From a virus: 22,539 bases of DNA. The notes under the pieces were generated by a model. That model was given only the letters and a program-made list of their open reading frames with translations, did no database searches and was not told where the DNA came from. This document shows, in pieces, positions 1 to 22,539 of the stretch (position 1 is its first letter; every line of letters begins with the position of its first letter). The position numbers and the translations under genes are program-made. The stretch covers positions 1-22,539 of the IMG/VR virus record IMGVR_UViG_3300032323_000151. One strand, written 5' to 3'.

Positions 1-3000
1 AAGAACTTAGATCAGATTTTGATGGGCGCTGGCCTTGGCGCTATTGGCGCTTCGACTGGTGTTGAGCCTGCGCTTGCCCGTCAGCTTGCCAAAGGCATCG
101 CTACCAAAGAAGCGACTAAAGCCGCAATCAAACAGAGCGCTGAGAGAGAAACCGCCCCTGCTGCTAAACGTGGCGTGGTCAAGCAAGGCGCTATCACAGG
201 CGGTAAAGAGTTTGTTACTGAAGGCGCACAAGGTAGTCAGGAACAGTTGGCACAGAACATCGCACTACAACGTGAAGGACTTGATGTCCCAACGATGCGC
301 GGTGTCTACGGTCAAGGCACGCTGGAAGGTCTTGCTGGTCTCGGTATGGGCGCTGTGACAGGCGGACGCGAAGGGGCTAAAGCTAGGCGTGAGTTGGCTG
401 AAGATGCTACTAGGGGTGGCGACATCCCCGGCCAGTTCACCACTGCCAAAGAAGAACAACAACGTGCTGGCGTAGGCTTCAGCCAAGAGACTGCTGACTT
501 ACTCATGCCTGCTTCTGATGCGGCAGGCGCTCCTCTTGTCGCTGGCGTTACGCCTCCTGAGGTTACTGAAACTACCCCCGCGCCGCCAGCGCCTAAGAAA
601 CCCAGAACAACAGGTGTTGCACTAGACACTGTTGAAGCCGCTGCTGACTATATGCAGGCGATAGATTCTGGCACTAAGAAGCCAAACACAATGCAAGTAA
701 ATGCATTGATGAAGAATCTAGGTATCACTCCTCCTGAGAAAGGGGAAGGTTATCTGGGCCGCTCAGTTGCGGCAGTTAAAGCGCATCTTGCACAACAAGG
801 AGCACCCGATGCTACAGGAACTGACACCGACACAAGTGGAACAGGCGCTGGAGTGGCTCCACTCGCCGCTACAGGTCAGCCCGCCGCAGGGGCTGCAGGA
901 CCTCAACCCGATGGAATGGTATCTACTGGAGCAGCTACTCAACCAAATCTGGGTGGAGCAGGCGCACAGCCCGCTGCACTGAACGCCGGTACGCAACGCC
1001 TCATCGCTGACGAACTGCAAGGCGGCGCAACTCCTGCGGAGCTGATTACTAAATACGGCGGCACGCCAGAGCTTGCTGCCAGCGTTGACACGTTCATTAA
1101 ATCCATACCACCTCAAGGAACTCCAAGTGGCCCTGCGACCTCTGAAACCCAGCAAACAGAAACGAAAAGACAAGAAGCACCAGCTGCCGGACCAGCAGTA
1201 ACGCCTGAAGTTAAACCCGCTGGCTCTGTAAGCCTTGGCGATTTAGCGCCAGAACTGCAAGATGATATTCAGTCTCGCAGGGACGCTATCTATGAAATGG
1301 TTGCTGATGGCGCTAAGGCAAACAAAGTTGCTGCGGCGTACAAAGCTCTAAATGCTTTGGAAGAGCGGCACGGTTTAGATATCACTAGCCCTACTACGCT
1401 TAGTGCTAAGCGGGATAAACAAGGTCGTCTTAAAACCCAAGACATCATTGACGAAGGTGGTCAAGCATCCGCCGTTGAGCAAGACAAAACACCTGCGTAT
1501 CAAGGCACTGACTTGCAAGAGGCAATGAACCTCGCGGACAAGTACGAGAAGCAGGAAGAACAAGAGAAGCAGCAGGCCTACCAAGAGTCCTTGGGCGCAG
1601 GTAAAGCACGCTACGACCAGAAAAATCTTCCTCCCAACACTGAGGAGAACTACGACGCTGTAGCCGAAGAAATTAGCGCAAGGACTGATACGGCTAACGC
1701 AACCCGTAGCGAACTTGTCAAAAGAACGGAAGATTTAAATAAACAGCACCGTGAAGCTGTGGCTGAAGTCGAGCGTCTTGAAGATGCCATTGAAGCTGCT
1801 GAACGTAACAACGATCAGAAAAAGTTAGCGATACTGCGTGAGCAAGAGAACGAGGCCACCCGACGTGAAAGCGATTTGCTTGGTGATCTGATTGATGCGC
1901 AAACAGCGCTGCAAGACCACGGTCCCGTGCAAAACAAGCTTGAGCCTTGGGCTAAGCTTGACTCTGTTGACAAGGACATCTACTTTAGCTTCATCCGCAA
2001 CAACACTCCCGCTGAACACCGTCAAGCTGCCGCTGCGTTGTTGGATGCAAAGAACAAGGCAGGCGTTAAGTCTCGTGAAGGCGAAGGCAAGATGGATGCA
2101 GCGGAGCGCCGCGCTGCTCAAAACTACGAAGACAACCGCGCTCAAATGAGCAAGATATTCGGGCTGCAGTTTCCTGCATGGGACAAACTGTCTCCTGCGG
2201 CAAAGGCTGTGTATCTCAGAGAGATTGTCAACAACGCAGGCCAACAACAAGACGTAGCGTTTGCCAAGCTTGGCGTCAAGCTAACTCAAGACAACAAGTC
2301 GCTGAGCGAGAAAGAGAAGCAGAAGGATATTCAAGCTCTCCAGCAGCACCAACGCAGAGTGCAGGTGATGCGCGAGCGCAGACGCCGCCTTGACGAACGC
2401 CTTAGACGCGACTACAACCGCCGCGCTTCGCTGGGTATCGGGCAGACTTTCTACGGCATGCTGCCTGACAACGTCGTCAAGCTTATTAAGGACGGCAACC
2501 TGCAAGGCGTGTTGAACTACCTGCGTAACATTCCAGAAGCTGCTGGCGGTACAACAAGCCAAGGCCGTCAGATTGCCAAGACCGTGGCCAACGTCATCTG
2601 GAACATGGGTCTTAAGACCAAGATTCGTATCGTTGATACGTTGCCTGACGAAGACTTGGCTATCTACGATCCTGTCAAGGATGAGATTCTTGTAACACCT
2701 GAGGGCTTAAGCGGCTCAACTATTTTGCATGAGGCAGTGCATGCTGCAACGGTGAAAATTCTGAGTCACTTCGTCGCTGGCAGATTCAATATGCTGACAG
2801 CCTCACAGTTGGCTGGCGCTAAACAGCTTCAGGCCATCATGGACATGACCAAGAATGATCTTGGCAAAATGTTCCCTAGCCACTACGCAAACCTTCTTGA
2901 GTTTGTTTCCTATGCGCTGACCGATTCATCTTTCCAGCAAGCGCTAAACGATTTCTCAAGCACGTTGTTGACTGGCAAAGAGAAGGCTGCGTATGACAAA

Positions 3001-6000
3001 CTGAGTTCTGTATTTAGAAAATCTTTGTTCCTAAAAGACGGCGTGCAATCAGAGCCAGAATTTAAATCTGCCTTGCCGACTGTGAGAAAAGCGTGGACAG
3101 ACTTCAAGCTGGCGATGGCAAAGATTTTTGTTGTTGGCAGTACGGTCAACCAAAAGACTGGCGCGGTTAAAAACATCTCGTTGAAAGACGTGATGTTTAA
3201 GAAGGACGGGACACTCAACGAAGCTGCGCCAAGCAATTTGCTGATGGAAGTATCCGCAGCGTTTGAAGATATTCTTGAAGTGCCGACAGAGCCAATCTAC
3301 ATGGCTAAACTGCCAGCTAAAAAGGGCGCTGCCCCTGCCGCAGCGCCTAAGAAGGCGGATGAGTTCCGTGAGTCTGGTCTCTATGACGAAGACAAGTCAT
3401 ACAACTTGAGCGAGCGTGAGAACCCGACCAAGCAAAGCGCTGCGTTCTACAAGATGTTTACTACCCGTGAAGGCTGGAGGAACATCACCCGCGTGGTGCA
3501 AGACAAGAGCTATGCATCGCGTAGTCTGTTCACCAAGCTTGATAGGGCGAAGAAAATTAATCGTGACATGTCTGGCACGTTTAATAACTGGGAAGAGCAG
3601 GGCGATCTGTCTACGGGCGAAGCACGTCAGTTCTTTACTGACTATCTGCAAGAGCCGATGGATAACATCCGTCAGTCTTTCCAAGACTGGATTAAGTTGA
3701 CTGACAAAAAGACTGATCAGGCCCTCAACGAGTTCCATAGAATTGTTGAGATGTTCCACGAGCCAGAGCGCCGTCTAGCTAAGTGGATTACATCCGTGCC
3801 TCTGAGCAAAACTCAGAACCTGACACAAAACGGCAAGCCTATCAGCGCGGCTGAACGGCGTATTGCTATTCTTGGCGATCAACGCAACGGCACTGCTGGC
3901 CTCATCCACAAAGTTGAGTTGACTCAACAGCAAAGGCAAGCTCTCTGGCAGGAGTTGACATACCTTGCTGAAAACCACGCAGACGAATTTGGTGATAGCC
4001 CACGCATCACTGAGAAAATGCGCGAGCGTTTTGCAAAACCGGGGTCGAAGCACAAAGGTATCGACATTAAACTGGAAGCGCCTATCTACAACGTGCTTGG
4101 TATTGAGAAAGCCACCGTAAATAAACGCATGGCTGAATACATGGCCAAGAGTCCAGAAGAGCGCGCAGCTATCGAGAAGATTCTTGCCGAGGCTAGAGTC
4201 TTGAGTAGCGCTACGGCTAAGCTCAATCAGGTCGGCAACTACTGGTCATCGCCTGTGTCCAATCTGGTTGGCATGTACGACTACCAATACTACATGCCGT
4301 TCAAAGGCCTGTCTAAGCACAGCAAGAGCGACGAGTTGATTGACCCTGAAAGCCACGGCAAAGAGATGCAGGAACTAGAGCACTCTGCCGATGGCCGTTT
4401 CAAGACCTCTGACAACCCCATCTTGCAATTGATCAACGATGGATACAGATCAGCTGGGCGTGCGGGTCGCCGTAACTACACACAGGCAATCAAGAACGCT
4501 GTTAAATCCAACAAGTACAACCCTAACGGCACGGGGATACTGCCGGGCGAAGTCGTAAATACGATCAAATTTGAAGAGCGCAACACCGTCGATATGTCGA
4601 AGTACAAAGGCGGGGCCAACATCTTTCACTACAACCCCGACGGTTCTATCGACATCATCCGCATCAACGAGCCAAAGATTCTGAACGCGCTGCGCTACAC
4701 CTTCCGTGATGCAAAACCGTGGGTGGACCTTGCAAACTCTATAACAGGGTTCTTCGGGGCAATGCACACACGCTACAACTACAACTTCGCACCTCTCAAC
4801 TTTGTGCGCGACACGTTGACCAACGCATGGACTATCGGTGCTAGCCGCCAGATGGGTCCGATAGCTGCGGCGCAGTATCTAGGTTCTGTCAGTGCGCAGA
4901 TAGTTAAGAACGGTCTTGGCAAAGCGATGCACGTTGCGCTGCTGGAAGAAAAAGGCGACGCGTCAAGCAAGAAGATGCTGCTCGACGCTGCCCAAGACCC
5001 ATTCGTCAGAGACATGCTTGAGTACCTCCGCTTTGGTGGCAAGACAACGTACCTGCAAGGCTTCTCTCTGAAGTCAAACCTTGAACAGCTCAGTGAAAAT
5101 ACTATTGGGCGTTCACGGATCGTTACCAACTTGGAAGATGCTGGAAGACTGATTGACACTTGGAACAACATGTTCGAGTTCACAGGCCGCACTGCTGCGT
5201 ACACCATCTACAAAGACAAAGCTTTGGCAAAGAATATCAAAGCCGGTATGTCTAGCGCGAAAGGGCCTCAAGGCCAGATGTCTCCTGCAGAGCGCGCCGC
5301 TGCGGTGGAAGCTGCGGCGTTTGTAAAGAACCTCGCTAACTTTGAAAAGGTTGGCGAGAAGGGGCGTGAGTTGGGCGCGCTGTACATGTTTATTCGCCCT
5401 GCTGCCACTGGCGCTGTTAGAGCAATCGAAGCAGTGATGCCTGCCTTCACCCGCGAGAAATACGAAGAGGCTGATCTACCCCCGCAGATCGCAAACGATG
5501 AAGCAGCCAAAGCCGAGTACATGGAGAACTTTAAAAAAGAACGCATGTACGCACAGATCATGGTTGGGGCATTAACGGGCGCTGGCGTGGGGCTTTACTT
5601 GCTGTCTATGCTGGGCGCGCCAGATGATGAGTGGGGTCGTAACAATACCAAGACTGACAACATGGAGCAGTGGACACGCTTTGCGCGTTTCCATATTCCA
5701 AACGAAGTGTCAGAGCAACTTGGGCTAGGCAAAAACGTTGTGTTCCAGATTCCTTGGGGCTTTGGCTTGGGGGCGTTTGCCGCAACGGGTGCGCAGATTG
5801 CCGGTATGGGTACGGGCAACGTGTCTATCAAAGAAGGCCTTGGCAATATCATGGGAACAATCATGTTGGATTCGTTCCTGCCTTTGCCGATATCCAAAAT
5901 TCCAGTCACAGAGTCGCCTTTAAATTGGTTTATAGATTCAACCGTGCCTAGCGTTATGAGGCCGTTAACTGAGTTCATTTCGAACATGAACGGTATCGGG

Positions 6001-6624
6001 CAGACCATTAACAGCGCCTCTCAGCGCCGTATGGGTGACGCGTTTACTGGCAGTGACCGCATCCCTGAAATCTACAAGGAAGCAGCAAAGTGGTGGTTTA
6101 GGGCAACGGATGGTGAAGGCTTTGCTGGGGTCCCCGGTGACATCAGCCCCAACACTATTTATTTCTTGGCCAACAGCTACTTAGATGGTCTTTCTAAAAT
6201 TGCTGAAATCACATACAACTGGGCCAATCTTGACAAAGGTGAGAAAGAGTTCAACCCTAAGAGCGACATCCCACTGTTTGGCTCGTTCTTCGGCGCTAAG
6301 ACTAACGTTGATTCGCGCCTGTACACCAAGGTGGAGAAGAAGATCAAAGAGATTGACAAGCGCCTTGTCTCTATGGAGAAAGATAATCCCGTGCAACACG
6401 CGCTGTACGTAGCCAAGAACCCTCTGTACCCAAGCATTGTTGATGTGTATCAGTCTAAGCAGGGCGAATTGAACGAGCTTCGTCAAAAAGCCACTGAGAT
6501 TCGTACCGCGAGATACCTGAGTCCAAAAAGTCGTGATCAAATTTTGAGGACAATCACGCTTGAGCAGAACATGCTCAAGTACCAGATGGTTGAAGAGTTC
6601 AAGGTGCTGGGCATAGAACCTTAA
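1..6624 (+). CDS. Large polyvalent virion-associated protein with zincin motif and LPD38-like C-terminus (5' partial)
   Basis: The frame is open from base 1 with no upstream stop, so the N-terminus is missing; the TTG/ATG at 19-24 is probably internal. Residues below count from the codon at 19. The N-terminal 140 residues are Gly/Ala-rich with hydrophobic helices. A Pro/Ala/Gly/Thr-rich linker spans about 185-400, and charged, probably coiled-coil stretches lie near 500-525 and 568-634. HEAVH at 904-908 is a zincin-type HExxH metalloprotease signature. NFVRDTLTN near 1594-1602 and the Arg-rich C-terminal helices resemble the LPD38 domain of large polyvalent phage proteins. One hydrophobic segment, 1843-1866, could cross a membrane. 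Such proteins are usually packaged in the virion and ejected with the DNA. The metalloprotease role is inferred from the motif. The stop overlaps that of the convergent gene. Confidence 0.85.
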   Translation, partial: KNLDQILMGAGLGAIGASTGVEPALARQLAKGIATKEATKAAIKQSAERETAPAAKRGVVKQGAITGGKEFVTEGAQGSQEQLAQNIALQREGLDVPTMRGVYGQGTLEGLAGLGMGAVTGGREGAKARRELAEDATRGGDIPGQFTTAKEEQQRAGVGFSQETADLLMPASDAAGAPLVAGVTPPEVTETTPAPPAPKKPRTTGVALDTVEAAADYMQAIDSGTKKPNTMQVNALMKNLGITPPEKGEGYLGRSVAAVKAHLAQQGAPDATGTDTDTSGTGAGVAPLAATGQPAAGAAGPQPDGMVSTGAATQPNLGGAGAQPAALNAGTQRLIADELQGGATPAELITKYGGTPELAASVDTFIKSIPPQGTPSGPATSETQQTETKRQEAPAAGPAVTPEVKPAGSVSLGDLAPELQDDIQSRRDAIYEMVADGAKANKVAAAYKALNALEERHGLDITSPTTLSAKRDKQGRLKTQDIIDEGGQASAVEQDKTPAYQGTDLQEAMNLADKYEKQEEQEKQQAYQESLGAGKARYDQKNLPPNTEENYDAVAEEISARTDTANATRSELVKRTEDLNKQHREAVAEVERLEDAIEAAERNNDQKKLAILREQENEATRRESDLLGDLIDAQTALQDHGPVQNKLEPWAKLDSVDKDIYFSFIRNNTPAEHRQAAAALLDAKNKAGVKSREGEGKMDAAERRAAQNYEDNRAQMSKIFGLQFPAWDKLSPAAKAVYLREIVNNAGQQQDVAFAKLGVKLTQDNKSLSEKEKQKDIQALQQHQRRVQVMRERRRRLDERLRRDYNRRASLGIGQTFYGMLPDNVVKLIKDGNLQGVLNYLRNIPEAAGGTTSQGRQIAKTVANVIWNMGLKTKIRIVDTLPDEDLAIYDPVKDEILVTPEGLSGSTILHEAVHAATVKILSHFVAGRFNMLTASQLAGAKQLQAIMDMTKNDLGKMFPSHYANLLEFVSYALTDSSFQQALNDFSSTLLTGKEKAAYDKLSSVFRKSLFLKDGVQSEPEFKSALPTVRKAWTDFKLAMAKIFVVGSTVNQKTGAVKNISLKDVMFKKDGTLNEAAPSNLLMEVSAAFEDILEVPTEPIYMAKLPAKKGAAPAAAPKKADEFRESGLYDEDKSYNLSERENPTKQSAAFYKMFTTREGWRNITRVVQDKSYASRSLFTKLDRAKKINRDMSGTFNNWEEQGDLSTGEARQFFTDYLQEPMDNIRQSFQDWIKLTDKKTDQALNEFHRIVEMFHEPERRLAKWITSVPLSKTQNLTQNGKPISAAERRIAILGDQRNGTAGLIHKVELTQQQRQALWQELTYLAENHADEFGDSPRITEKMRERFAKPGSKHKGIDIKLEAPIYNVLGIEKATVNKRMAEYMAKSPEERAAIEKILAEARVLSSATAKLNQVGNYWSSPVSNLVGMYDYQYYMPFKGLSKHSKSDELIDPESHGKEMQELEHSADGRFKTSDNPILQLINDGYRSAGRAGRRNYTQAIKNAVKSNKYNPNGTGILPGEVVNTIKFEERNTVDMSKYKGGANIFHYNPDGSIDIIRINEPKILNALRYTFRDAKPWVDLANSITGFFGAMHTRYNYNFAPLNFVRDTLTNAWTIGASRQMGPIAAAQYLGSVSAQIVKNGLGKAMHVALLEEKGDASSKKMLLDAAQDPFVRDMLEYLRFGGKTTYLQGFSLKSNLEQLSENTIGRSRIVTNLEDAGRLIDTWNNMFEFTGRTAAYTIYKDKALAKNIKAGMSSAKGPQGQMSPAERAAAVEAAAFVKNLANFEKVGEKGRELGALYMFIRPAATGAVRAIEAVMPAFTREKYEEADLPPQIANDEAAKAEYMENFKKERMYAQIMVGALTGAGVGLYLLSMLGAPDDEWGRNNTKTDNMEQWTRFARFHIPNEVSEQLGLGKNVVFQIPWGFGLGAFAATGAQIAGMGTGNVSIKEGLGNIMGTIMLDSFLPLPISKIPVTESPLNWFIDSTVPSVMRPLTEFISNMNGIGQTINSASQRRMGDAFTGSDRIPEIYKEAAKWWFRATDGEGFAGVPGDISPNTIYFLANSYLDGLSKIAEITYNWANLDKGEKEFNPKSDIPLFGSFFGAKTNVDSRLYTKVEKKIKEIDKRLVSMEKDNPVQHALYVAKNPLYPSIVDVYQSKQGELNELRQKATEIRTARYLSPKSRDQILRTITLEQNMLKYQMVEEFKVLGIEP

Positions 6625-6827
6625 CGGATGCGCCAAGCGCGTACCCCAATGTGATTGTCTTTGTGCGTGACATAGCACTTGATTCTCACATCGGCGCGCT
6701 TGGCTCCGCTTTCTAGGGCGTAGATTATCTCGGCAGGGCGCAAGGTGGGGATGAAGAAACTCTCCCCCACCTCCATCACCTCAAATGGAAATATCCACTC
6801 TGGCTCTTTAATGTCACTGGGATTCAT
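6621..6827 (-). CDS. Small conserved phage protein, 68 aa
   Basis: I start this at the ATG complementary to 6825-6827, inside the last codons of the primase-helicase gene (14-base overlap), with GAGTGG upstream as a weak ribosome site. The longer frame to 6971 would lie mostly inside that gene and has an Arg-rich, shadow-like sequence. The protein has the pattern FPFEVMEVGESFFIP near the N-terminus and GVRAWRIR at the C-terminus. I associate this pattern with a family of short phage proteins of unknown function in replication regions. It is the last gene of the leftward arm, and its TAA stop shares the TTAA at 6621-6624 with the convergent virion gene. No catalytic motif is visible. Confidence 0.75.
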   Translation of the reverse strand: MNPSDIKEPEWIFPFEVMEVGESFFIPTLRPAEIIYALESGAKRADVRIKCYVTHKDNHIGVRAWRIR

Positions 6828-9666
6828 CAAACCACTCGCCGGGGATTTGAGTCTTGAACCAATAGAGATACGCAGGGTCAACAGCAATCGCTGACTTCCA
6901 GCCAGTGGTGAGGCGTCCCTTCTTGTCGTCCACAAGAATCTTCTTCTCTCGCATATCAAACTCAAACTCACGCAAGCTCACTTGGCGCTCTGCCAAGAAC
7001 TTCTTGAACTCTGCCTTTGATACTTGCAGGAGACCTTCTTCACTGACGATGCGCGCTACAAGCTGGCCGCGTGGCTCCATCGTGACTTTGCCATCCTTGA
7101 GCACAAGCGTGTTGCCCATGTTCTTGTTGATGAAGTCACCAAGCAAGGACGGGTAGTCTGTGCGGTTAACCTTCACGACCTTGTCCCTGATCTCAATCAT
7201 TGCCAGCACAGTATGGTGATAGATGCGGTCAAGTTCATAGCCTGTGATGTTGTGCTCGTTGGCAATCGATGCGCCGCCAAACGCCGCGCCGATCAAGTTC
7301 TGATAGAAGCGGTACTCAGCATACGAGCCGAAGTCTTTCTGGAATCGTTCGTCCCACTTGGCGATGTGGTCCAGCACGTAGTTATCGCCGCCACGCAGAA
7401 CTTCTTTGATGTACATCGGCCCTGCATGCCCGTAGTTGAAGCGGAACGCATCGAAGATGTATTTACCCATCGAGCCATCTTGGTTGAGCAGGTTAGGCCT
7501 GTGGACCAAGAACTCTATCACACGAGCAGCTTCACCGTCAGGGTTGGCCTTCAGCGCATCGAGCTTGCCGTAGACAGAGTGGTTGTTAGTCAGCATAGCA
7601 ATCAACGACGCAGACATCTCGTACTCACGTTCAGCGTTGACTGAACCCTGCATACGAATCTTGGCTTTGCCATGAGATACGTTGTGAATCAACTGCCCCA
7701 ACTCCTCGGGCTTCTTGTCACCCACCTCATCAAGTCCGAACATCAAGCTGTGCAGGCCAAGGTAGCGGCCAGTCAAGCCGTTGTCAGTAGCCTTCACCAC
7801 GCTCAAGTCTTTGGGGTGTCCAAAGATGCTCAGACCTGCGTACATAGCGCCCGTCTTGGCGTTGCCAGAGCGCCCAGTAAGGCTCACAGTCACCCCTGAA
7901 GTTGACGTATATGGCATCAGCGGGGAACCGAACCCGCACATAGAAGCAAAGGCATGCAACTCAAACTCTGGCTTGTTCAGATAGTCCATCGACTCACGCC
8001 AACGTGCGTATGTACCAGCTTGCGTCAGGTGCTTAGACAGTCCACGAACGAACGGCGATGATGGCGCATCAATGACTTCTCCAGACCGTGTGTATTCTTT
8101 TTTGCCGATAACAAAACTACGATTGTCCCAGTTGGCGTTGTCAGCAGTGCGCTCTTCTGTCCATCCCATCTGCATGCGCATCTGTAGCGCCTTGTCAGTT
8201 GTCTGGAGGTACTGCCCCCATTTGATGATGTAGTTCATAAGGTGTTGGTCATGTATTGATGAGAACAATACGCCATTGCTGGTCGTGATCGCTTTGAACG
8301 CTTCCTTCGCGTAGACGCTTTTCATTGGAAGCAAGAAGTCACGAAATCCATCGTGCGGCAACTCGTACCGCATCTGCAAACACTCACCGTCATGTGGGCT
8401 GATCATGCGTGTCAGCGGGTAGAGATCACTGGAGAGAATCAGTATGGGGTCATCTTGATGCTTGCCGCCCTTTTTGTCTATTTTGGGAGGGGGGACAAAG
8501 TAGATGCCTCCGTTTTCTCCTCGGACAAAGGGGAAAAGGAACTGGGGGAAATCAGGAACTTTTTTGGGATTCGGGACTTCCCAAACTGCGTCCTCTTTAT
8601 TTGTCGCAGGGGCTGGCTTGAACTGCCTACCCAACACAATTGGACTTGTGATCTTTCCTCTATGCCTGCATCCATCGCATCGGCTAGGGTAGTTATCAAT
8701 GAACCACTCACAGGTTCGTGGAGCAGGAAAGCGGCTTGCCTTTTCTTCTGTATCTTCATAGGTGTATCTTGGGTCTGGGTTAGATAACTCATGGATAGCA
8801 GTCGCACCGTCATCGCAGAACTTGGCGATGGACAAACCTGCAAACCACAACGGCTCTTCTAATGCGGCGGCGTTTTCGCAGATGTATTTGATCTGTGCGC
8901 AACCGCCTTCATCGTCGACACTCTTTTGTGCCAGTACCTCAAATGTTTTTGCGAAGTTATCTAACTTCAGAATTGCTTTGGTGTCCTCATCGACACCCTT
9001 GGGGATGCTTGCCAGAATCTCATCGGCGGCAAGTTCTTCCTGTGTTGGGGTAGCTGCGGGTGCTGCCTCTACGCCGAAGAACTCTTTGAACTCGTTCCAG
9101 CTATAGACGTGTATCTCATCGCTGACGACTGACGTTGGCTCTGGCGGGTCGAACTTGTGATTGAACGTCTCAGGTGCGCGCATGATGCGTGCGGCATCTG
9201 CCGTAACCACTGGGTCAATAGATATGTGCTGGAGACACAACGCTTTGAATTTCTCAGCGATAGGCTTCCACTCCTCTCGCGGGATGTCTTCATCCATAAT
9301 CCAGTAGGCATGGACCCCGCCACCTGAATCGATCACTACTGGGTCAGGTAGCCCAGTCTCCCCAACTAGTTTGTAGAGCGCCGTGTGTGCATCGCCCTTG
9401 GACTGATAGTCTTTCCCTGTGCCAACATCTAGGTCAATAAAGAATGACCGAACGAAGAGGCAGTCATCTGCTTTTCTGCTGTATCCGTCGAACGTCCCCA
9501 GTGCGACGAATGTGTTCAGCTGTTTTGATTTGAACTTTTCGATTTGTTCAAATACGCCATCAAGTGTCTCGGCAAATTTGTTTGAAACCTTCTTGTCGGT
9601 CCCAATGCTGGTAATGCAATAGACACCCTGCGTAGGCAATGCTTTCTCGTAGAATTGTTTTAACAT
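6814..9666 (-). CDS. Primase-helicase fusion (AEP-like primase plus DUF927/D5-like ATPase)
   Basis: This 950-aa protein probably synthesises primers and unwinds DNA at the phage fork. The N-terminal part looks like an archaeo-eukaryotic primase: FFIDLD at 75-80 gives the metal-binding DxD, SGGGVHAYW at 114-122 supplies the sxH-type histidine, and DPVVTADAARIMRAPETFNH at 151-170 fits the third motif region. A PriCT-like segment follows (about 255-345), with Cys256, Cys263, Cys319, Cys330 and Cys333 that could hold zinc. The C-terminal half resembles DUF927 helicases. It has a Walker A-like GRSGNAKT at 598-605 (Lys604), a Walker B LMFGLDE ending at Asp646-Glu647, a sensor-like LTNNH stretch and a following EAARVIEF with a candidate arginine finger. 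Only about 80 bases with two hairpins separate it from the upstream HTH gene. Confidence 0.88.
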   Translation of the reverse strand: MLKQFYEKALPTQGVYCITSIGTDKKVSNKFAETLDGVFEQIEKFKSKQLNTFVALGTFDGYSRKADDCLFVRSFFIDLDVGTGKDYQSKGDAHTALYKLVGETGLPDPVVIDSGGGVHAYWIMDEDIPREEWKPIAEKFKALCLQHISIDPVVTADAARIMRAPETFNHKFDPPEPTSVVSDEIHVYSWNEFKEFFGVEAAPAATPTQEELAADEILASIPKGVDEDTKAILKLDNFAKTFEVLAQKSVDDEGGCAQIKYICENAAALEEPLWFAGLSIAKFCDDGATAIHELSNPDPRYTYEDTEEKASRFPAPRTCEWFIDNYPSRCDGCRHRGKITSPIVLGRQFKPAPATNKEDAVWEVPNPKKVPDFPQFLFPFVRGENGGIYFVPPPKIDKKGGKHQDDPILILSSDLYPLTRMISPHDGECLQMRYELPHDGFRDFLLPMKSVYAKEAFKAITTSNGVLFSSIHDQHLMNYIIKWGQYLQTTDKALQMRMQMGWTEERTADNANWDNRSFVIGKKEYTRSGEVIDAPSSPFVRGLSKHLTQAGTYARWRESMDYLNKPEFELHAFASMCGFGSPLMPYTSTSGVTVSLTGRSGNAKTGAMYAGLSIFGHPKDLSVVKATDNGLTGRYLGLHSLMFGLDEVGDKKPEELGQLIHNVSHGKAKIRMQGSVNAEREYEMSASLIAMLTNNHSVYGKLDALKANPDGEAARVIEFLVHRPNLLNQDGSMGKYIFDAFRFNYGHAGPMYIKEVLRGGDNYVLDHIAKWDERFQKDFGSYAEYRFYQNLIGAAFGGASIANEHNITGYELDRIYHHTVLAMIEIRDKVVKVNRTDYPSLLGDFINKNMGNTLVLKDGKVTMEPRGQLVARIVSEEGLLQVSKAEFKKFLAERQVSLREFEFDMREKKILVDDKKGRLTTGWKSAIAVDPAYLYWFKTQIPGEWFDESQ

Positions 9667-18189: not shown

Positions 18190-18612
18190 TTACTTCAGTG
18201 TGGCGATTTCTCGTGAGAGATACCATTGAGCCTTGCGCAGGTCTTCCAGCTTGTTGCCCTTGTGGTCTGCCCTAGTGATGTACTTCACCACGTTGCCCAA
18301 GTTGTACCCAAGCTTCTTGGCCTCAATGAAATCAATCGTCTCAATGCCACCCGTGGTGTAGTGCGCGGGACTATTCACTGGGTCAGGCTGTTTGTTGATT
18401 GTTTCAATCACAGGATTCTCAATCGCTCTCTGCATAGGAATCTTGTGCGCCCATGTCCCGTCACGTTGTTTGACCAGTCGCAGGTCTTTACGGCCTTTGC
18501 TCAACAGCACATAGGCGTAGTTCTTGACAACGCCTAGCGTCTTCATTAGGTACTCAGCGCTAGTGTTCGGGTCTGACGCAAGGTATTTCTTGGTTTGATC
18601 TAAGTTACTCAT
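18190..18612 (-). CDS. HTH-DUF3310 phage protein, 140 aa
   Basis: The C-terminal 60 residues are a clear DUF3310 (phage SaV-like) domain: VNSPAHYTTGGIETIDFIEA, NLGNVVKYITRADHKGN and KLEDLRKAQWYLSREI. DUF3310 proteins are widespread in phages, and their biochemical function is not settled. The first 55 residues look like a helix-turn-helix (TSAEYLMKTLGVVKNYAYVLLSKG), so the protein may bind DNA. I place the start at the ATG of 18610-18612 because AAGGAGAAGG lies before it; the longer frame to 18690 lies within the 67-aa gene. It is the last gene before the strong terminator. Confidence 0.85.
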   Translation of the reverse strand: MSNLDQTKKYLASDPNTSAEYLMKTLGVVKNYAYVLLSKGRKDLRLVKQRDGTWAHKIPMQRAIENPVIETINKQPDPVNSPAHYTTGGIETIDFIEAKKLGYNLGNVVKYITRADHKGNKLEDLRKAQWYLSREIATLK

Positions 18613-18808
18613 TTGCCTTCTCCTTCTTGGTTTGGCGTTTAATTGATACGATTCCAGCCCCATGCTGGTTTCGTGCTTCCTGCATTTCATCGGCGTACAA
18701 GTACGCTTTCATTGGGATGTTGTGCGGCTCTTCTCCTTTCATAATTAATCCCAACATCGCAAAGCCAGCGTGTAGGTCACGCAGATTGCTACGATCTTCA
18801 TCATTCAT
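18605..18808 (-). CDS. Small conserved phage protein, 67 aa
   Basis: Contains LRDLHAGFAMLGLIMKGEEP in the first half and MKAYLYADEMQEARNQ in the second. The layout resembles the GMTLRDYFAAKAMQ family: a helix with LxAGFAM, then a helix with YxxADxMxxAR. The C-terminus is Lys/Gln-rich. The ATG at 18806-18808 has GGAG upstream, inside the end of the VRR-NUC gene. Its end overlaps the DUF3310 gene by eight bases. No function is known to me, and the family assignment is by eye. Confidence 0.72.
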   Translation of the reverse strand: MNDEDRSNLRDLHAGFAMLGLIMKGEEPHNIPMKAYLYADEMQEARNQHGAGIVSIKRQTKKEKANE

Positions 18809-19091
18809 CTAAGTTCTCCAGTAACAGTGTCAGGTCTGCTATGTTGTTCTCATCAATTACTAGCGTGAAGCCACCAACTGAACGAATAGCTGACATATGT
18901 TTTTCTTGTAGGGCGGTCGGCTTGTTGCCGTTCGCCTTTGCCTCAATCCCTATGAATGCCCCCTTGTAACAACATACAAAATCAGGGACACCCGCCGCAC
19001 CGTACCCAGTACCAATAGGCATGGTGAAGTAGGCTCCCTTTGTTTGAAGAATATCTTTGATCTTCTTCTTGACTGCACCCTCAGGCGTCAT
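18801..19091 (-). CDS. VRR-NUC domain nuclease, 96 aa
   Basis: A single-domain PD-(D/E)XK nuclease of the VRR-NUC type, expected to act on branched DNA during phage recombination or resolution. Counting from the chosen Met, Glu4 and the early helix are followed by GVPDF with Asp37, then FIGIEAK with Glu50 and Lys52, and Gln62 in ALQEKH. The length is typical of phage VRR-NUC proteins. I start at the ATG of 19089-19091 because AAAGGTGG has suitable spacing; the GTG at 19103 would add four residues and lacks a spaced ribosome site. The start overlaps the preceding 119-aa gene. Confidence 0.9.
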   Translation of the reverse strand: MTPEGAVKKKIKDILQTKGAYFTMPIGTGYGAAGVPDFVCCYKGAFIGIEAKANGNKPTALQEKHMSAIRSVGGFTLVIDENNIADLTLLLENLDE

Positions 19092-19440
19092 CTTGTGTCC
19101 CACCTTTCAGTGACTCTAGAGTTGGTCGGTCTACCACTAAACAGTAGTAGGTCTCAGACGCACGCCACCCAATCTCGTCGAGTTCAAGTGGCCCCGTGTT
19201 TGTGTAGAGTGTCAATCTAAGTATTTTTGAATCAGCCACGAACGCACTATCTCCGTTGGCAAGCACCATTGCAAACTTAGACTTCAACACATCAGGCAAG
19301 GTATCGTCCGTGTATATACGGTGATACCCATCAGCCACATACACGATGTACTCGTTGTTCACCCTGCGCACAGGCAGACGAATCAAATCCCAACGCTTGG
19401 GGTGAACCACAGGACTCAGTTCACCGATCAGATGGGGCAT
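19081..19440 (-). CDS. Unknown protein, 119 aa
   Basis: A mixed alpha/beta sequence with strands such as WDLIRLPVRRVNNEYIVYVA, RLTLYTNTGPLELDEIG and ASETYYCLVVDRP. I do not recognise the family. The start is uncertain. The ATG at 19438-19440 is preceded by GGATGG, while the one at 19453-19455 has no purine-rich site, so I prefer the former. Either way the gene begins within the end of the 320-aa gene. It ends overlapping the VRR-NUC gene by 11 bases. Its place between the 320-aa unknown and the nuclease suggests one transcript, not a role. Confidence 0.7.
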   Translation of the reverse strand: MPHLIGELSPVVHPKRWDLIRLPVRRVNNEYIVYVADGYHRIYTDDTLPDVLKSKFAMVLANGDSAFVADSKILRLTLYTNTGPLELDEIGWRASETYYCLVVDRPTLESLKGGTQDDA

Positions 19441-20390
19441 GGGGTAGCCATCCATGCGTGGTCATATTGAGAGGGTTGACTGCTGTAAAAGAACACTGCG
19501 TCAAGCCCTTCGTCATACTTGTCCATGATTGGAAAGTTCATCGGGCCTAGCTTGTTCTCGCCCCTGTTCTCGTATGAGATTTTCATCATCGTCATCAGGG
19601 GCAACAACTCGGGGTAGTCCTCGACTGTCTTGTACCGCTTGAAGCCTTCGATGGTTTCGATATCGCAGTCGCTTGAACTAGTACCAATCTTGGTCATCTT
19701 GAATTTGCCTATGAGTAGGTGTTTGTGGGCATCTATGCCGACAAGATAGAAAGGATTCTTGAAGAACCGTGTGGATTCTTCTATCTTCACATCTCTTATC
19801 TTATCAGCTTCTTTGTAAATGTCAAGTATATTTTTACATTTATTTAGGTCGAGAGCAACAGGAATTCCATCAGTACTTTCCCCTAGTAAGGTAGCCAACA
19901 TCGCATGAATCTCGTTTACTGTAAAAGAGTTCTGTTTGGTGCTCTCGCCCATAGCCGACTGCAAGTAGGACACGCCAGCCCTAGCTTGCCTGACCTTGGT
20001 GCTTGTAAGTTCTTTCATGTCCTTGACTATGCCTTGCCGTTTCAGCGTTGCCATGAGTGACGAAAGTTTTATGCTACGAATAGTCTCCTTGTCGTTATGG
20101 TCTTGCCCACGGGCTTTCCGGTAGTAGGGTGTGCGAAAGCAATACTCTAGCTGATCGTTGTTCGTCCCGCCCTCGTTCGTTACCCACACCTTGCCGACAG
20201 CCACGCCGTTGGGGTGACACATCATGTACCCCGCTTCGGCGGTTCGATAGCTGGAACTCACTACCTTGCCCATGACCTTCAGGCCGAACTTAAATTGCAT
20301 CTCACGCACCAGTGGGAGCGCATCTGAAGCAAGCAACTCATTGAGTTCATTCTCAGAGCCAAACCCGTCAAGAAAATATCTGCTAATCAT
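19428..20390 (-). CDS. Unknown protein near the VWA gene, 320 aa
   Basis: A full-length protein with no family I recognise. The N-terminal half has a beta-rich stretch (MGKVVSSSYRTAEAGYMMCH, then GVAVGKVWVT) and RTPYYRKARGQDHNDKETI, which reads like a compact globular domain. The middle is helical (SSLMATLKRQGIVKDMKEL, then VNEIHAMLATLLGES). The C-terminal part has FYLVGIDAHKHLLIGKFKM and ends with DAVFFYSSQPSQYDHAW. Strong AAGGAG precedes the ATG and overlaps the TAA of the 60-aa gene ten bases upstream. It is encoded with a VWA protein and a 348-aa unknown, so a shared module is plausible. Confidence 0.82.
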   Translation of the reverse strand: MISRYFLDGFGSENELNELLASDALPLVREMQFKFGLKVMGKVVSSSYRTAEAGYMMCHPNGVAVGKVWVTNEGGTNNDQLEYCFRTPYYRKARGQDHNDKETIRSIKLSSLMATLKRQGIVKDMKELTSTKVRQARAGVSYLQSAMGESTKQNSFTVNEIHAMLATLLGESTDGIPVALDLNKCKNILDIYKEADKIRDVKIEESTRFFKNPFYLVGIDAHKHLLIGKFKMTKIGTSSSDCDIETIEGFKRYKTVEDYPELLPLMTMMKISYENRGENKLGPMNFPIMDKYDEGLDAVFFYSSQPSQYDHAWMATPCPI

Positions 20391-20400
20391 TTCTCTCTCC

Positions 20401-20583
20401 TTAAAAAGTTACTGTTCTGGACACTTTGACCGAATACCCAAGCGCTTCGATCTTCTTGATCGTTTCCAATGTGAGAGTCTTAGTTCCTGCGATGTCGGCG
20501 AACAGCCGCGCCTTCTCGCACACGGGGTAGTACTTCACTGCCCCATACACATCCTTGACCTCCACTTCAATCGTTTCATTCAT
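20401..20583 (-). CDS. Small conserved phage protein, 60 aa (DVYGAVKYYPVC type)
   Basis: A short protein with VEVKDVYGAVKYYPVCEKAR, then AGTKTLTLETIKKIEALGYS. I associate this pattern with small uncharacterised phage proteins. I start at the ATG of 20581-20583 because GGAGGTACAGCAGT precedes it. The ATG at 20604 would add seven residues lying in the 348-aa gene. It overlaps the end of the 348-aa gene by eight bases, and its TAA forms part of the ribosome site of the 320-aa gene. The C-terminal KVSRTVTF could be a beta strand. No function assigned. Confidence 0.78.
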   Translation of the reverse strand: MNETIEVEVKDVYGAVKYYPVCEKARLFADIAGTKTLTLETIKKIEALGYSVKVSRTVTF

Positions 20584-21622
20584 ACTGCTGTACCTCCATT
20601 CCATCGACCATGACTGTGTATCCCCACTCGCTAGGCGGGTACATCTCGGAGTTGGTGTACTCGACCTTCTTGAACACTTGTTCGTTCTGTTTGTATATCT
20701 CCTTGTTTAGTTTGCGCTTGAGGTTCAAGAACATCATGTGTGGCGTGTCTTCATGTGCGCTGTACCTCGTCATGCTTGAGTCAATGTATCGGCGCACGTT
20801 CCAACGCATACCGCCAACGTCCCACGCAATCATGTAGAGAATCGCTGCATCAAGTGGCGCAGTGTGGATGAGAGCATCTGCTATCGATGTGTACTCAGTG
20901 TGGCGGCGGTGTAGCAAGTAGTGTTCTGACTCTGGGTTTGCGAGACTCATGTGTTCTGTTAATACCTCAGCCGCTGTCTTGACGAACACCCCGTAGTCCA
21001 TCGCCTTGGTCATCACCTCAGTCGTGGTGTAGAAGTCTGCATAGTCAGCAAGCAAAGTCTTACCCACCTTGCGGTCAACCTTCCTACCGATGACCGTGAT
21101 CGGTTTGGTTGGTTGCATAGTTTCACAGTCGATGCGTAGGCCTTTGTACGCTGGAATAATCTTGCGACTACCATCAGCTACCTTGCGGCCCCACCATATC
21201 ATCCCACCCCTGCGTGAGTCGGTACAAAAGTACCCGTCAGAGTAGTCAGACATTATGCCTCGCTCACCCTGCCCATATCTATCACCAGTGAACTCAAACG
21301 TATTGTCAGGACGTACCACGCCAAGGATGTTGGACAGTGTCTCGTACCTCCGGTAAACATACTCATCCTCTAGGTTCTTGTACTTCTGCAAACGGGGGAA
21401 GCCTACCTTCTCCAGTGCTTCGTACTCATCCTTGGATATGGTCTCACCTGTCCAAGTCTGCCCATACACGACATCGAACACGCGCTGTCCATCCTCCTCT
21501 CGCACAAGAAAGTATTTGGTGTTGTGCTTGCGGTTACCAATCGGGAATCTATTTAGCGACCCACGGTAGGGTGAGGTGCTATTTGTGATGCTGTTGAGCC
21601 TCTTGTAGTTCAGTCCGCGCAT
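20576..21622 (-). CDS. Unknown protein near the VWA gene, 348 aa
   Basis: Not recognised. The N-terminus is basic (MRGLNYKRLN). A central region has FTGDRYGQGERGIMSDYSDG and RGGMIWWGRKVADG, and a helical part holds DYGVFVKTAAEVLTEHMSLA, HYLLHRRHTEYTSIADALIH and DAAILYMIAWDVGGMRWNVR. The C-terminal YTVMVDGMEVQQYE looks like a terminal strand. Several conserved-looking Trp, His and Arg residues suggest a structured enzyme or adaptor rather than a disordered protein. AGGAG precedes the ATG (21620-21622). It overlaps the upstream and downstream small genes by 13 and 8 bases. It lies two small genes downstream of the VWA protein. Confidence 0.82.
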   Translation of the reverse strand: MRGLNYKRLNSITNSTSPYRGSLNRFPIGNRKHNTKYFLVREEDGQRVFDVVYGQTWTGETISKDEYEALEKVGFPRLQKYKNLEDEYVYRRYETLSNILGVVRPDNTFEFTGDRYGQGERGIMSDYSDGYFCTDSRRGGMIWWGRKVADGSRKIIPAYKGLRIDCETMQPTKPITVIGRKVDRKVGKTLLADYADFYTTTEVMTKAMDYGVFVKTAAEVLTEHMSLANPESEHYLLHRRHTEYTSIADALIHTAPLDAAILYMIAWDVGGMRWNVRRYIDSSMTRYSAHEDTPHMMFLNLKRKLNKEIYKQNEQVFKKVEYTNSEMYPPSEWGYTVMVDGMEVQQYE

Positions 21623-21792
21623 TTGTTTTCTCCTGTTTCCTGTAAGTCGTGAATCTCCATCTCGCCGCTTATACCGTCTCCCATCGGATTTGCTTGGTCA
21701 TACATAAGCAACTCGGCTTCCTCTTTCGTGTTAGCCAGTACTATGAGTTCTTCCAGATATGTAGTTATCACTACGCCTTTCCATGCTTTCAT
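21610..21792 (-). CDS. Small phage protein, 60 aa
   Basis: The first half is a beta-helix pattern (KGVVITTYLEELIVLANTKE), then EEAELLMYDQAN. This is the look of short phage proteins with a strand followed by an EEAE helix. The C-terminal part is acidic and Gly-rich. GGAGGCCAAGA precedes the ATG at 21790-21792. It overlaps the 71-aa gene by 62 bases in another frame, which is a long overlap for this region, but both have credible starts. No function assigned. Confidence 0.72.
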   Translation of the reverse strand: MKAWKGVVITTYLEELIVLANTKEEAELLMYDQANPMGDGISGEMEIHDLQETGENKCAD

Positions 21793-21946
21793 TCTTGGCC
21801 TCCAGTTTGTCCAGTTCAGTCAATACACTTCGCCACAGGTCAGGGTTGTGACCGTTGATGATTTGTTCCAGCGCATATGCATGCGCATGTTCAGGTTGTT
21901 GTCCCATGAGAACGTTAGCGATCTCATCAGCCATGCGGTACTTCAT
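21731..21946 (-). CDS. Small helical protein, 71 aa
   Basis: The first 50 residues are helical (KYRMADEIANVLMGQQPEHA, then AYALEQIINGHNPDLWRSVL, then TELDKLEAKN). The last 20 residues (RRSDNYISGRTHSTG and before) are low in pattern and lie over the start of the 60-aa gene, so the functional part may be the first 50. The ATG at 21944-21946 is two bases after the VWA gene's TGA and has GGGGATGACTGACC upstream. Coupled expression with the VWA protein is likely. I do not recognise a family. Confidence 0.65.
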   Translation of the reverse strand: MKYRMADEIANVLMGQQPEHAHAYALEQIINGHNPDLWRSVLTELDKLEAKNESMERRSDNYISGRTHSTG

Positions 21947-21948
21947 GG

Positions 21949-22539
21949 TCAGTCATCCCCGAACATCACCTTCTTCCCCACAGGCGGCACAAAGTCTTTA
22001 CGCTGAGTGACCATCCACAGGGTTGGGCTAGTAATCTTCCAGTCGATGTTGCTCTCTACATACCCGTCAGTGAACACAAGGACGCACTCGGCCTTGATCT
22101 TGTTCTTGTTTACGTAGTCACTGACACATGAGACGTGAGTTCCCCCACCGCCCATAGGCTTGAGCAATGTCGCAATGTTGGAGTAGTTGTCCTTGAAGAT
22201 TTGTTCGCCATGCACTTCGGTGTCCCACCAAAGAACACGCACGACTTCGGGCTGACAGAGGTCACAAATTGATACCAGTTCGGTAGCGAACTCGGTTATC
22301 TGCTCCCCGCCAATCGAGCCTGAGGTATCGATAGCCACAACAATCTCACCGATGCTCTCGTTCTCCACGCTTGGCAAGTAGATGTCATTAGCCATGTGAC
22401 GCTTGTTCATGCGCCGCCATGTGAACTCATCGTTGCCTTTGGTTGTTGCCGACACGAACTCACGCAATGCTTCACGCCAGTCGATCTTGGGTTCCAACAG
22501 GTCAGAGATAACTCTAGGAATCTTTGCACCCATGCGACC
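21949..22539 (-). CDS. VWA-domain protein, CobT/DUF2201-like (5' partial)
   Basis: The frame is open to the right edge, so the N-terminus is missing; 196 codons are visible. The internal ATG at 22531-22533 is probably not the start, and residues are counted from it. The pattern KIDWREALREFV, then FTWRRMNKRH, then IGEIVVAIDTSGSIG is typical of putative metallopeptidase or CobT-like VWA proteins of the DUF2201 type. The MIDAS metal site has Asp69, Ser71 and Ser73 in DTSGS, Thr132 in GGGGTH and Asp156 in FTDG. The C-terminus TLWMVTQRKDFVPPVGKKVM fits the family ending. These proteins commonly pair with a MoxR-type AAA+ ATPase, which would lie upstream beyond the window. Confidence 0.88.
   Translation of the reverse strand, partial: GRMGAKIPRVISDLLEPKIDWREALREFVSATTKGNDEFTWRRMNKRHMANDIYLPSVENESIGEIVVAIDTSGSIGGEQITEFATELVSICDLCQPEVVRVLWWDTEVHGEQIFKDNYSNIATLLKPMGGGGTHVSCVSDYVNKNKIKAECVLVFTDGYVESNIDWKITSPTLWMVTQRKDFVPPVGKKVMFGDD

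Follow-up and report, generated by a model that had tools for sequence, protein, structure and literature searches.

The right-hand edge of the virus record IMGVR_UViG_3300032323_000151 (IMG/VR) encodes a von Willebrand factor type A (VWA) protein followed by two large uncharacterised proteins of 348 and 320 amino acids (aa), here called p348 and p320, raising the question of whether these genes form a phage module and what such a module would do. The window analysed here is the whole stretch of 22,539 nucleotides (nt), positions 1-22,539 of that record. The answer we favour, with a confidence that is about even, is that VWA, p348 and p320 make up the downstream part of a row of genes that would encode an ATP-driven protein-remodelling machine, in a phage known mainly from metagenome contigs. 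The whole row consists of a DUF3150-like gene, an AAA+ ATPase gene, a metallopeptidase-VWA gene, p348, p67, p320 and p124; the first three genes are a cassette common to other phages and to plasmids, and the p348 family stays with this cassette when the gene order changes.

The upstream half of the row is seen in a near-identical contig, IMGVR_UViG_3300042507_000580 (L005/L027/L042), with protein identities to the window of 100% for the VWA part, 96% for p348 and 99% for the polymerase. It continues beyond the window edge with p315 (315 aa), an ATPase (371 aa) and the full VWA protein (426 aa), after which the genes of the window follow. The module and replication genes of the window are all on the minus strand, with a giant open reading frame (ORF) converging from the plus strand, and the row runs from the right edge leftwards through VWA, small ORFs, p348, p67, p320, p124 and a VRR-NUC-like nuclease into the replication genes (DUF3310 protein, DNA polymerase, exonuclease, helicase and primase-like protein). 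As an original prediction for this locus had it, the two large unknowns follow VWA on the same strand (ORFs 20576-21622 and 19428-20390) with small ORFs between, those around the unknowns being of 71, 60, 67 and 124 codons. Its description of overlaps throughout is nearly right: five junctions overlap (p71/p60 by 62 nt, p60/p348 by 13 nt, p348/p67 by 29 nt, p320/p124 by 28 nt and p124/VRR-NUC by 23 nt), while gaps of 2 and 10 nt separate VWA from p71 and p67 from p320. The features are as follows.

21949-22539, minus strand: VWA protein, represented by the C-terminal residues 231-426 of a 426-aa fusion of metallopeptidase and VWA, metal ion-dependent adhesion site (MIDAS) present, 5' end off the contig
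21731-21946, minus strand: p71, 71-aa ORF next after VWA, shared by some members of the clade
21610-21792, minus strand: p60, 60-aa ORF overlapping its neighbours, detected in some relatives only
20576-21622, minus strand: p348, 348-aa protein, member of a wider family X (~340 aa) found on either side of the ATPase-VWA core
20401-20604, minus strand: p67 (p67a), 67-aa ORF separating p348 from p320 and retained in the close clade
19428-20390, minus strand: p320, 320-aa protein, always adjoining p348 in its own clade; might be a remote relative of family Y (~300 aa)
19081-19455, minus strand: p124, 124-aa protein, a relative of family Y's C-terminal domain
18801-19103, minus strand: VRR-NUC-type endonuclease, named from the annotation of its RHph_TM3_14A homologue; first gene of the neighbouring replication block, given as context and not as part of the module

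The ATPase-VWA core and its DUF3150-like partner

The VWA ORF in the window (21949-22539, 196 codons) runs off the contig edge, and of the VWA protein originally described as intact it is the MIDAS motif that is intact, the protein itself being incomplete, with residues 231-426 of 426 on the contig. Its placement in the DUF2201 kind is borne out (Pfam DUF2201, E 9.9e-18, with DUF2201_N matched in its last part only, profile positions 209-270 of 271), and in a full 426-aa homologue from IMGVR_UViG_3300042507_000580 DUF2201_N (PF13203, 'putative metallopeptidase', E 2.8e-26) is followed by DUF2201 (PF09967, E 5.4e-17). The further comparison with CobT is not, as Pfam lists no CobT family at E up to 0.1 for the window part or up to 0.05 for the full homologue. 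The half of the protein beyond the window edge, as read from the near-identical contig, carries an HExxH metallopeptidase motif, and HExxH and the MIDAS-type DxSxS motif are both found in all 140 full-length VWA homologues (among 170 hidden Markov model (HMM) matches). PHROG phrog_1314 labels the VWA family 'HNH endonuclease', as do several phage records; judged by Pfam and motifs, which indicate a metallopeptidase-VWA protein, this label is misleading and is corrected here.

For counts of co-occurrence, loci with 400-base words in common were grouped into clusters, and a cluster was considered if it had room for the gene in question. The AAA+ partner that the original prediction expected upstream of VWA is present within 2.5 kb in 40 of 40 VWA-fetched clusters, and directly adjoins VWA in the near-identical contig that extends the window rightwards. 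This ATPase matches phrog_1297 ('ATPase', E 2.9e-47) and, by HMM, gp24 of phage N4 (E 5e-47). Its Walker A stretch (two glycines and a lysine) and DE pair are conserved in 96-99% of 136 aligned sequences and its homologue in cyanophage MinM2 is annotated 'MoxR family ATPase'; among curated profiles only PF00004 was matched, below its cut-off (15.5 of 21.2 bits).

The nearest constant partner of the VWA-ATPase pair is the DUF3150-like gene beyond the contig edge, and not p348 or p320. That p315 is DUF3150-like is indicated by profile matches to genes annotated DUF3150 in MinM2 (E 1.8e-38) and in plasmid locus L314 (E 3.4e-52), which are firmer than the direct Pfam evidence, where 19 of the 50 members of the family match DUF3150 (PF11348) with E no higher than 0.1 and a best value of 2.6e-4. 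The family member that lies beside the window is among those without a PF11348 match.

In the gene orders given below, D is the DUF3150-like gene, A the ATPase, V the VWA gene and X the p348/X family. Sixty-four clusters contain ATPase and VWA with 3-kb margins, and of these 59 have DUF3150 within 3 kb and 50 have the p348/X family, the orders being D-A-V-X in 40 and X-A-V-D in 10. The p348 counts of this set are inflated, because p348 or p320 served as the query for many of the loci, which hence must contain them, and the five clusters without DUF3150 are isolates added by hand. A fairer test is given by loci fetched by their polymerase without reference to VWA (the best 80 of a longer list ranked by similarity to the polymerase of Pseudomonas phage Rollin; 73 clusters), although some of these loci also went into building the X profile. 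Here DUF3150 lies beside A-V in all 18 clusters that have A and V with 1.5-kb margins. The p348 family is present in 12 of the 18 (8 X-A-V-D and 4 D-A-V-X) and six have no X within the margin, one of them (L306) having X just outside it. The third order, A-D-V, occurs in 3 of the 18, as well as in MinM2 (with small genes between) and on plasmids.

The p348 family and p320

Both p348 and p320 are genuine genes under purifying selection that diverge faster than the polymerase, as is evident from their 121 and 123 homologous ORFs, respectively, in the fetched loci (identical ones counted once) and from ratios of nonsynonymous to synonymous substitution rates (dN/dS) of 0.16-0.25 for p348, 0.12-0.30 for p320 and 0.07-0.10 for the polymerase in four comparisons. 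A row for p67a was dropped from the dN/dS table for a faulty alignment with an impossible dN. In records G003 (of L158) and G004 (of L063), the p320 match holds one in-frame stop each (TAA and TAG).

Searched as single sequences, neither p348 nor p320 matched anything among 50,697 phage records, and their PHROG matches were only marginal. Structure prediction, which had been proposed for the two unknowns, produced confident models (mean predicted local distance difference test scores of 90.7 for p348 and 90.5 for p320, the two proteins folded) and no informative match in the PDB (best Z 4.0 and 3.7). Comparison with BFVD gave three matches for each at E < 1e-3, all uncharacterised or unnamed in the tables; neither fold is put forward as new.

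Co-occurrence of the unknowns with VWA, likewise proposed as a check, is complete when counted from the unknowns, with VWA upstream of p348 in 41 of 41 clusters and upstream of p320 in 35 of 35; starting from VWA, p348 is found downstream in 39/53 clusters and p320 in 40/50. This does not single out a functional link and is weak evidence for one, because VRR-NUC and polymerase are linked just as perfectly, being found downstream of p348 in 53/53 and 42/42 clusters. The two unknowns also accompany each other, p320 lying downstream of p348 in 62/62 clusters and p348 upstream of p320 in 39/40 (the exception being L079), and the linkage of p320 is no tighter than that of the other genes in its own clade.

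Stronger indications come from loci in which p348 and p320 were not detected, many of which carry unknown genes of similar size in the same interval. Iterated profiles merged one such family, X (~340 aa), with p348; an X profile without any p348 member matched p348 in a profile-profile comparison with probability 95.5 (E 1.6e-8), and larger sets gave probability 95.9 (hhalign, E 6e-9 over 169 columns). Among reversed-sequence controls of profile pairs only one, for another pair, fell below E 0.05, at 0.028. In some lineages family X follows VWA and in others it closely precedes the ATPase, swapping place with DUF3150; the X seeds were chosen downstream of VWA, and the resulting profile then found the upstream copies. 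Because the family swaps flanks with DUF3150 around the A-V core, p348 probably belongs to a phage module with that core. The proposal of a module made up of VWA and both unknowns is partly supported, with p348 as a probable member, while p320 is tied to VWA no more tightly than other genes of the clade. Neither of the outcomes named as telling against it, a missing AAA+ partner upstream and a failure of the two unknowns to co-occur with VWA genes, was observed.

Homology is less readily traced for p320. The neighbouring p124 is a relative of the C-terminal domain found in family Y (~300 aa), whose genes occupy this interval (probability 77 for the initial sets and 97 for merged sets, together with direct HMM matches), and p320 might conceivably match the remaining part of Y (probability 16, E 0.0016); on these values it was dropped as a proven member. 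Two MinM2 genes of 301 and 347 aa after VWA, considered as homologues of the unknowns, gave no convincing match. In the A-D-V lineage (L243, L259, L289, L295, L307, L311, L238, L276) two other unknown families, X3 and Y3, follow VWA and may be remote relatives of X (X-Y3 probability 44).

Relatives in other phages, plasmids and bacteria

The D-A-V trio recurs in three gene orders within a group of phages akin to Rhizobium phage RHph_TM3_14A and to Rollin and KPP25, known here mostly from metagenome contigs with relatives of ~60-69 kb. The window's polymerase, helicase, exonuclease and primase-like protein match RHph_TM3_14A, and its polymerase and helicase also match Rollin and KPP25, both of them Pseudomonas phages; matches to N4 are far weaker (polymerase E 2e-104 for RHph_TM3_14A, 7.7e-102 for KPP25 and 0.0018 for N4, or 1.9e-7 with the family profile). 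The primase-like protein has no match to the N4 primase, and the giant ORF, a fragment, reached a non-significant E of 0.063 against the N4 virion RNA polymerase, whose genes in N4 and RPP1 were cut in the stretches searched. Assignment of the window to the N4-like phages (Schitoviridae), the first idea, was dropped as less probable on the part of the genome seen, since its other genes fit RHph_TM3_14A/KPP25-type phages better.

Among 12 large contigs (~60-69 kb), picked from loci found with VWA, p348 or p320, a terminase was matched in 11 (10 over the curated cut-off), p348 and p320 in 10, DUF3150 in 12 and DUF2201 in 11; in the twelfth p348 lies close to the contig end, where the VWA gene may be cut. 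The whole records of KPP25, Rollin and phiA008 share polymerase and helicase with the window's group despite having no match to DUF2201, p348, p320 or DUF3150. RHph_TM3_14A has the same polymerase, helicase, exonuclease, primase-like protein and VRR-NUC, with an ATPase-VWA pair upstream of the polymerase as in the window's group, but DUF3150, p348 and p320 were not detected in its whole record and a 257-aa unknown gene, without a match as a homologue, stands in their place. MinM2 matched DUF2201 and DUF3150, and p348 and p320 were not detected.

The gp24/gp25 pair of N4 (Schitoviridae) is a homologous ATPase and metallopeptidase-type VWA protein, adjacent and in the same order as in the window's phage (window-family profiles, E 5e-47 and 4.7e-53 for N4, 1.5e-82 and 3.4e-114 for EcP1), and is among the 14 core genes of N4-like phages, listed as 'unknown' and 'vWFA domain' (PMC4193335). 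N4, EcP1, DSS3phi2 and RPP1 differ from the window's phage in that relatives of DUF3150, p348 and p320 were not detected. The MoxR-vWA proteins of jumbo-phage group 2.2, likened here by description and not by sequence, also combine an ATPase with a metallopeptidase-VWA fusion, but the available account mentions no DUF3150 or p348-like partner and proposes a function in virion assembly (PMC7824862). MoxR-vWA ternary conflict systems have a third component of VMAP, iSTAND, FtsH or beta-propeller type (PMC7159879).

On plasmids and integrative and conjugative elements, a MoxR-DUF3150-VWA cassette places ATPase, DUF3150 and VWA side by side, as in the phage trio, although in the order A-D-V and not D-A-V or A-V-D. 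The DUF3150 relative has matches in 42 of 72,556 plasmid records, and in each of the four plasmid loci inspected an ATP-binding protein, the DUF3150 relative and VWA are consecutive by HMM check; in these loci (L312, L313, L314, L374) A-D-V adjoins PRTRC, type IV secretion or conjugation genes. A search through bacterial genomes, seeded with these four loci that were already A-D-V, returned 58 loci, mostly from Burkholderiaceae, with A-D-V in 45 of the 48 having at least 2.5 kb on both sides and D-V, A-D or D alone in the rest. Plasmid pCAR1 is annotated with consecutive AAA ATPase, DUF3150 and VWA-type ('NorD') genes, taken to be the published ORF101-103 without matching the numbering gene by gene; ORF101 is described as MoxR-like and ORF103 as VWA, and genes of the ORF100-103 group are conserved in R478, Rts1, SXT and R391 (PMC2642839). 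We found no paper on DUF3150, nor on N4-like/Schitoviridae phages with MoxR/AAA plus VWA, in the open-licence literature, where the parts are published separately and no paper joining them was found.

What the gene row may do

The mechanism that best fits the row, judged from motifs and homology, would be one in which a target protein is remodelled or processed at the expense of ATP. By analogy with MoxR-VWA pairs, the ATPase would form a ring and grip a target protein by means of the VWA protein. More loosely, the DUF3150-like protein could serve as a third, structural subunit, cleavage or processing of the target may fall to the HExxH domain, and p348, less surely p320 and p124, might be fast-evolving phage-specific partners that choose or present the target. 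A target in the host or at the host interface is favoured over a virion protein because the cassette is also found on conjugative plasmids, which make no virion. We tentatively extend this proposal to a single machine, formed by the DUF3150-like protein, the AAA+ ATPase and the metallopeptidase-VWA protein, that many mobile elements might use against a shared host target, the p348 family being an added, fast-evolving fourth component that sets what the machine acts on.

Several observations weigh against the proposed machine. The first X profile, of 5 sequences, gave a probability of only 4-5 against p348, and the enlarged X set was needed. A few genomes keep the cassette and p320 and are missing p348 (L079, L090/L091, L093, L094), and, in a further difference from the window's phage, the p348, X, p320 and Y profiles have no match in any of the 4 plasmid loci or 58 bacterial loci (a search that did not include pCAR1), so that p348 would not be essential to the machine. 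Bacterial genomes were also scanned by one narrow pattern from the p348 alignment, which matched 30 stretches, none encoding a relative, a result that does not show absence. HExxH is lacking in 2 of 4 plasmid VWA proteins and 7 of 56 bacterial ones, and proteolysis is therefore not a universal function. RHph_TM3_14A, EcP1, N4, DSS3phi2 and RPP1 have A-V without detectable DUF3150, and p348 and p320 were likewise not detected in them. Finally, the Pfam link between p315 and DUF3150 is weak alone; the unrelated family Gp23 reached 8.4e-5 in 3 members.

Two other explanations of the unknowns deserve weight. If p348 and p320 sat in the same conserved replication block as the ATPase-VWA pair but were independent of it and did not act with it, one would expect what is seen in the close clade, where VRR-NUC and polymerase are just as fully co-retained; the loss of p348 in some genomes, its non-detection beside plasmid cassettes and the lack of a fold match giving p348 or p320 a function point the same way. 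The swapping of flanks between the p348 family and DUF3150 around the core in separate lineages argues against it, as does the non-detection of p348 (and p320) in three relatives without the core (KPP25, Rollin, phiA008), and we consider independence somewhat unlikely. It stands for p320, for which there is no comparable evidence beyond non-detection in these three relatives. The ATPase-VWA pair could instead be a virion-assembly chaperone that folds or processes tail or other virion proteins, with p348 and p320 as its clients or as minor virion proteins of the middle phase. Iyer et al. 2021 (PMC7824862) propose virion assembly for jumbo-phage MoxR-vWA proteins with an N-terminal metallopeptidase and point to a pair that acts in tail assembly in Acidianus two-tailed virus, and four virion proteins of RPP1 are encoded near its gp24/gp25 homologues (Chan et al. 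2014, PMC4193335). However, the cassette sits with replication genes on the strand opposite to the giant ORF, and p348 and p320 have no recognisable match in RPP1, DSS3phi2 or N4. Its presence on plasmids, beside conjugation genes and where no virion exists, makes a purely virion-assembly role less likely, and we regard the chaperone as rather improbable.

An AAA+ ATPase plus a VWA protein is also the architecture of chelatase motor subunits, from which a CobS/CobT-like role in metal chelation or cofactor insertion could be supposed. Pfam lists DUF2201/DUF2201_N and no CobT family, and no chelatase large subunit was found among the scanned genes of L042 or the window, which cover part of the genome; such a role seems highly improbable.

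For an ATP-driven remodelling machine, the DUF3150 link between the phage and plasmid versions, together with a phage-specific fourth family that travels with the core, narrows the search for a common target and suggests two systems in which experiments are tractable, N4 with E. coli K-12 as host and pCAR1 with Pseudomonas. With regard to N4 gp24/gp25 and the plasmid AAA+/DUF3150/VWA cassette, the only function proposal that we met for such a phage pair is virion assembly, made for jumbo phages.

Outside the row, the giant plus-strand ORF (window 1-6624, 2207 codons) is open at the left edge and convergent with the replication genes, and this fragment has no PHROG match. The 950-aa protein encoded at 6814-9666 (and at 30610-33693 of L230) has primase-type PHROG matches, while its RHph_TM3_14A homologue is annotated 'putative integrase'. 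The DUF3310 protein at 18190-18690 has an extra N-terminal part, and in relatives the DUF3310 profile family occurs at varied places around the polymerase.

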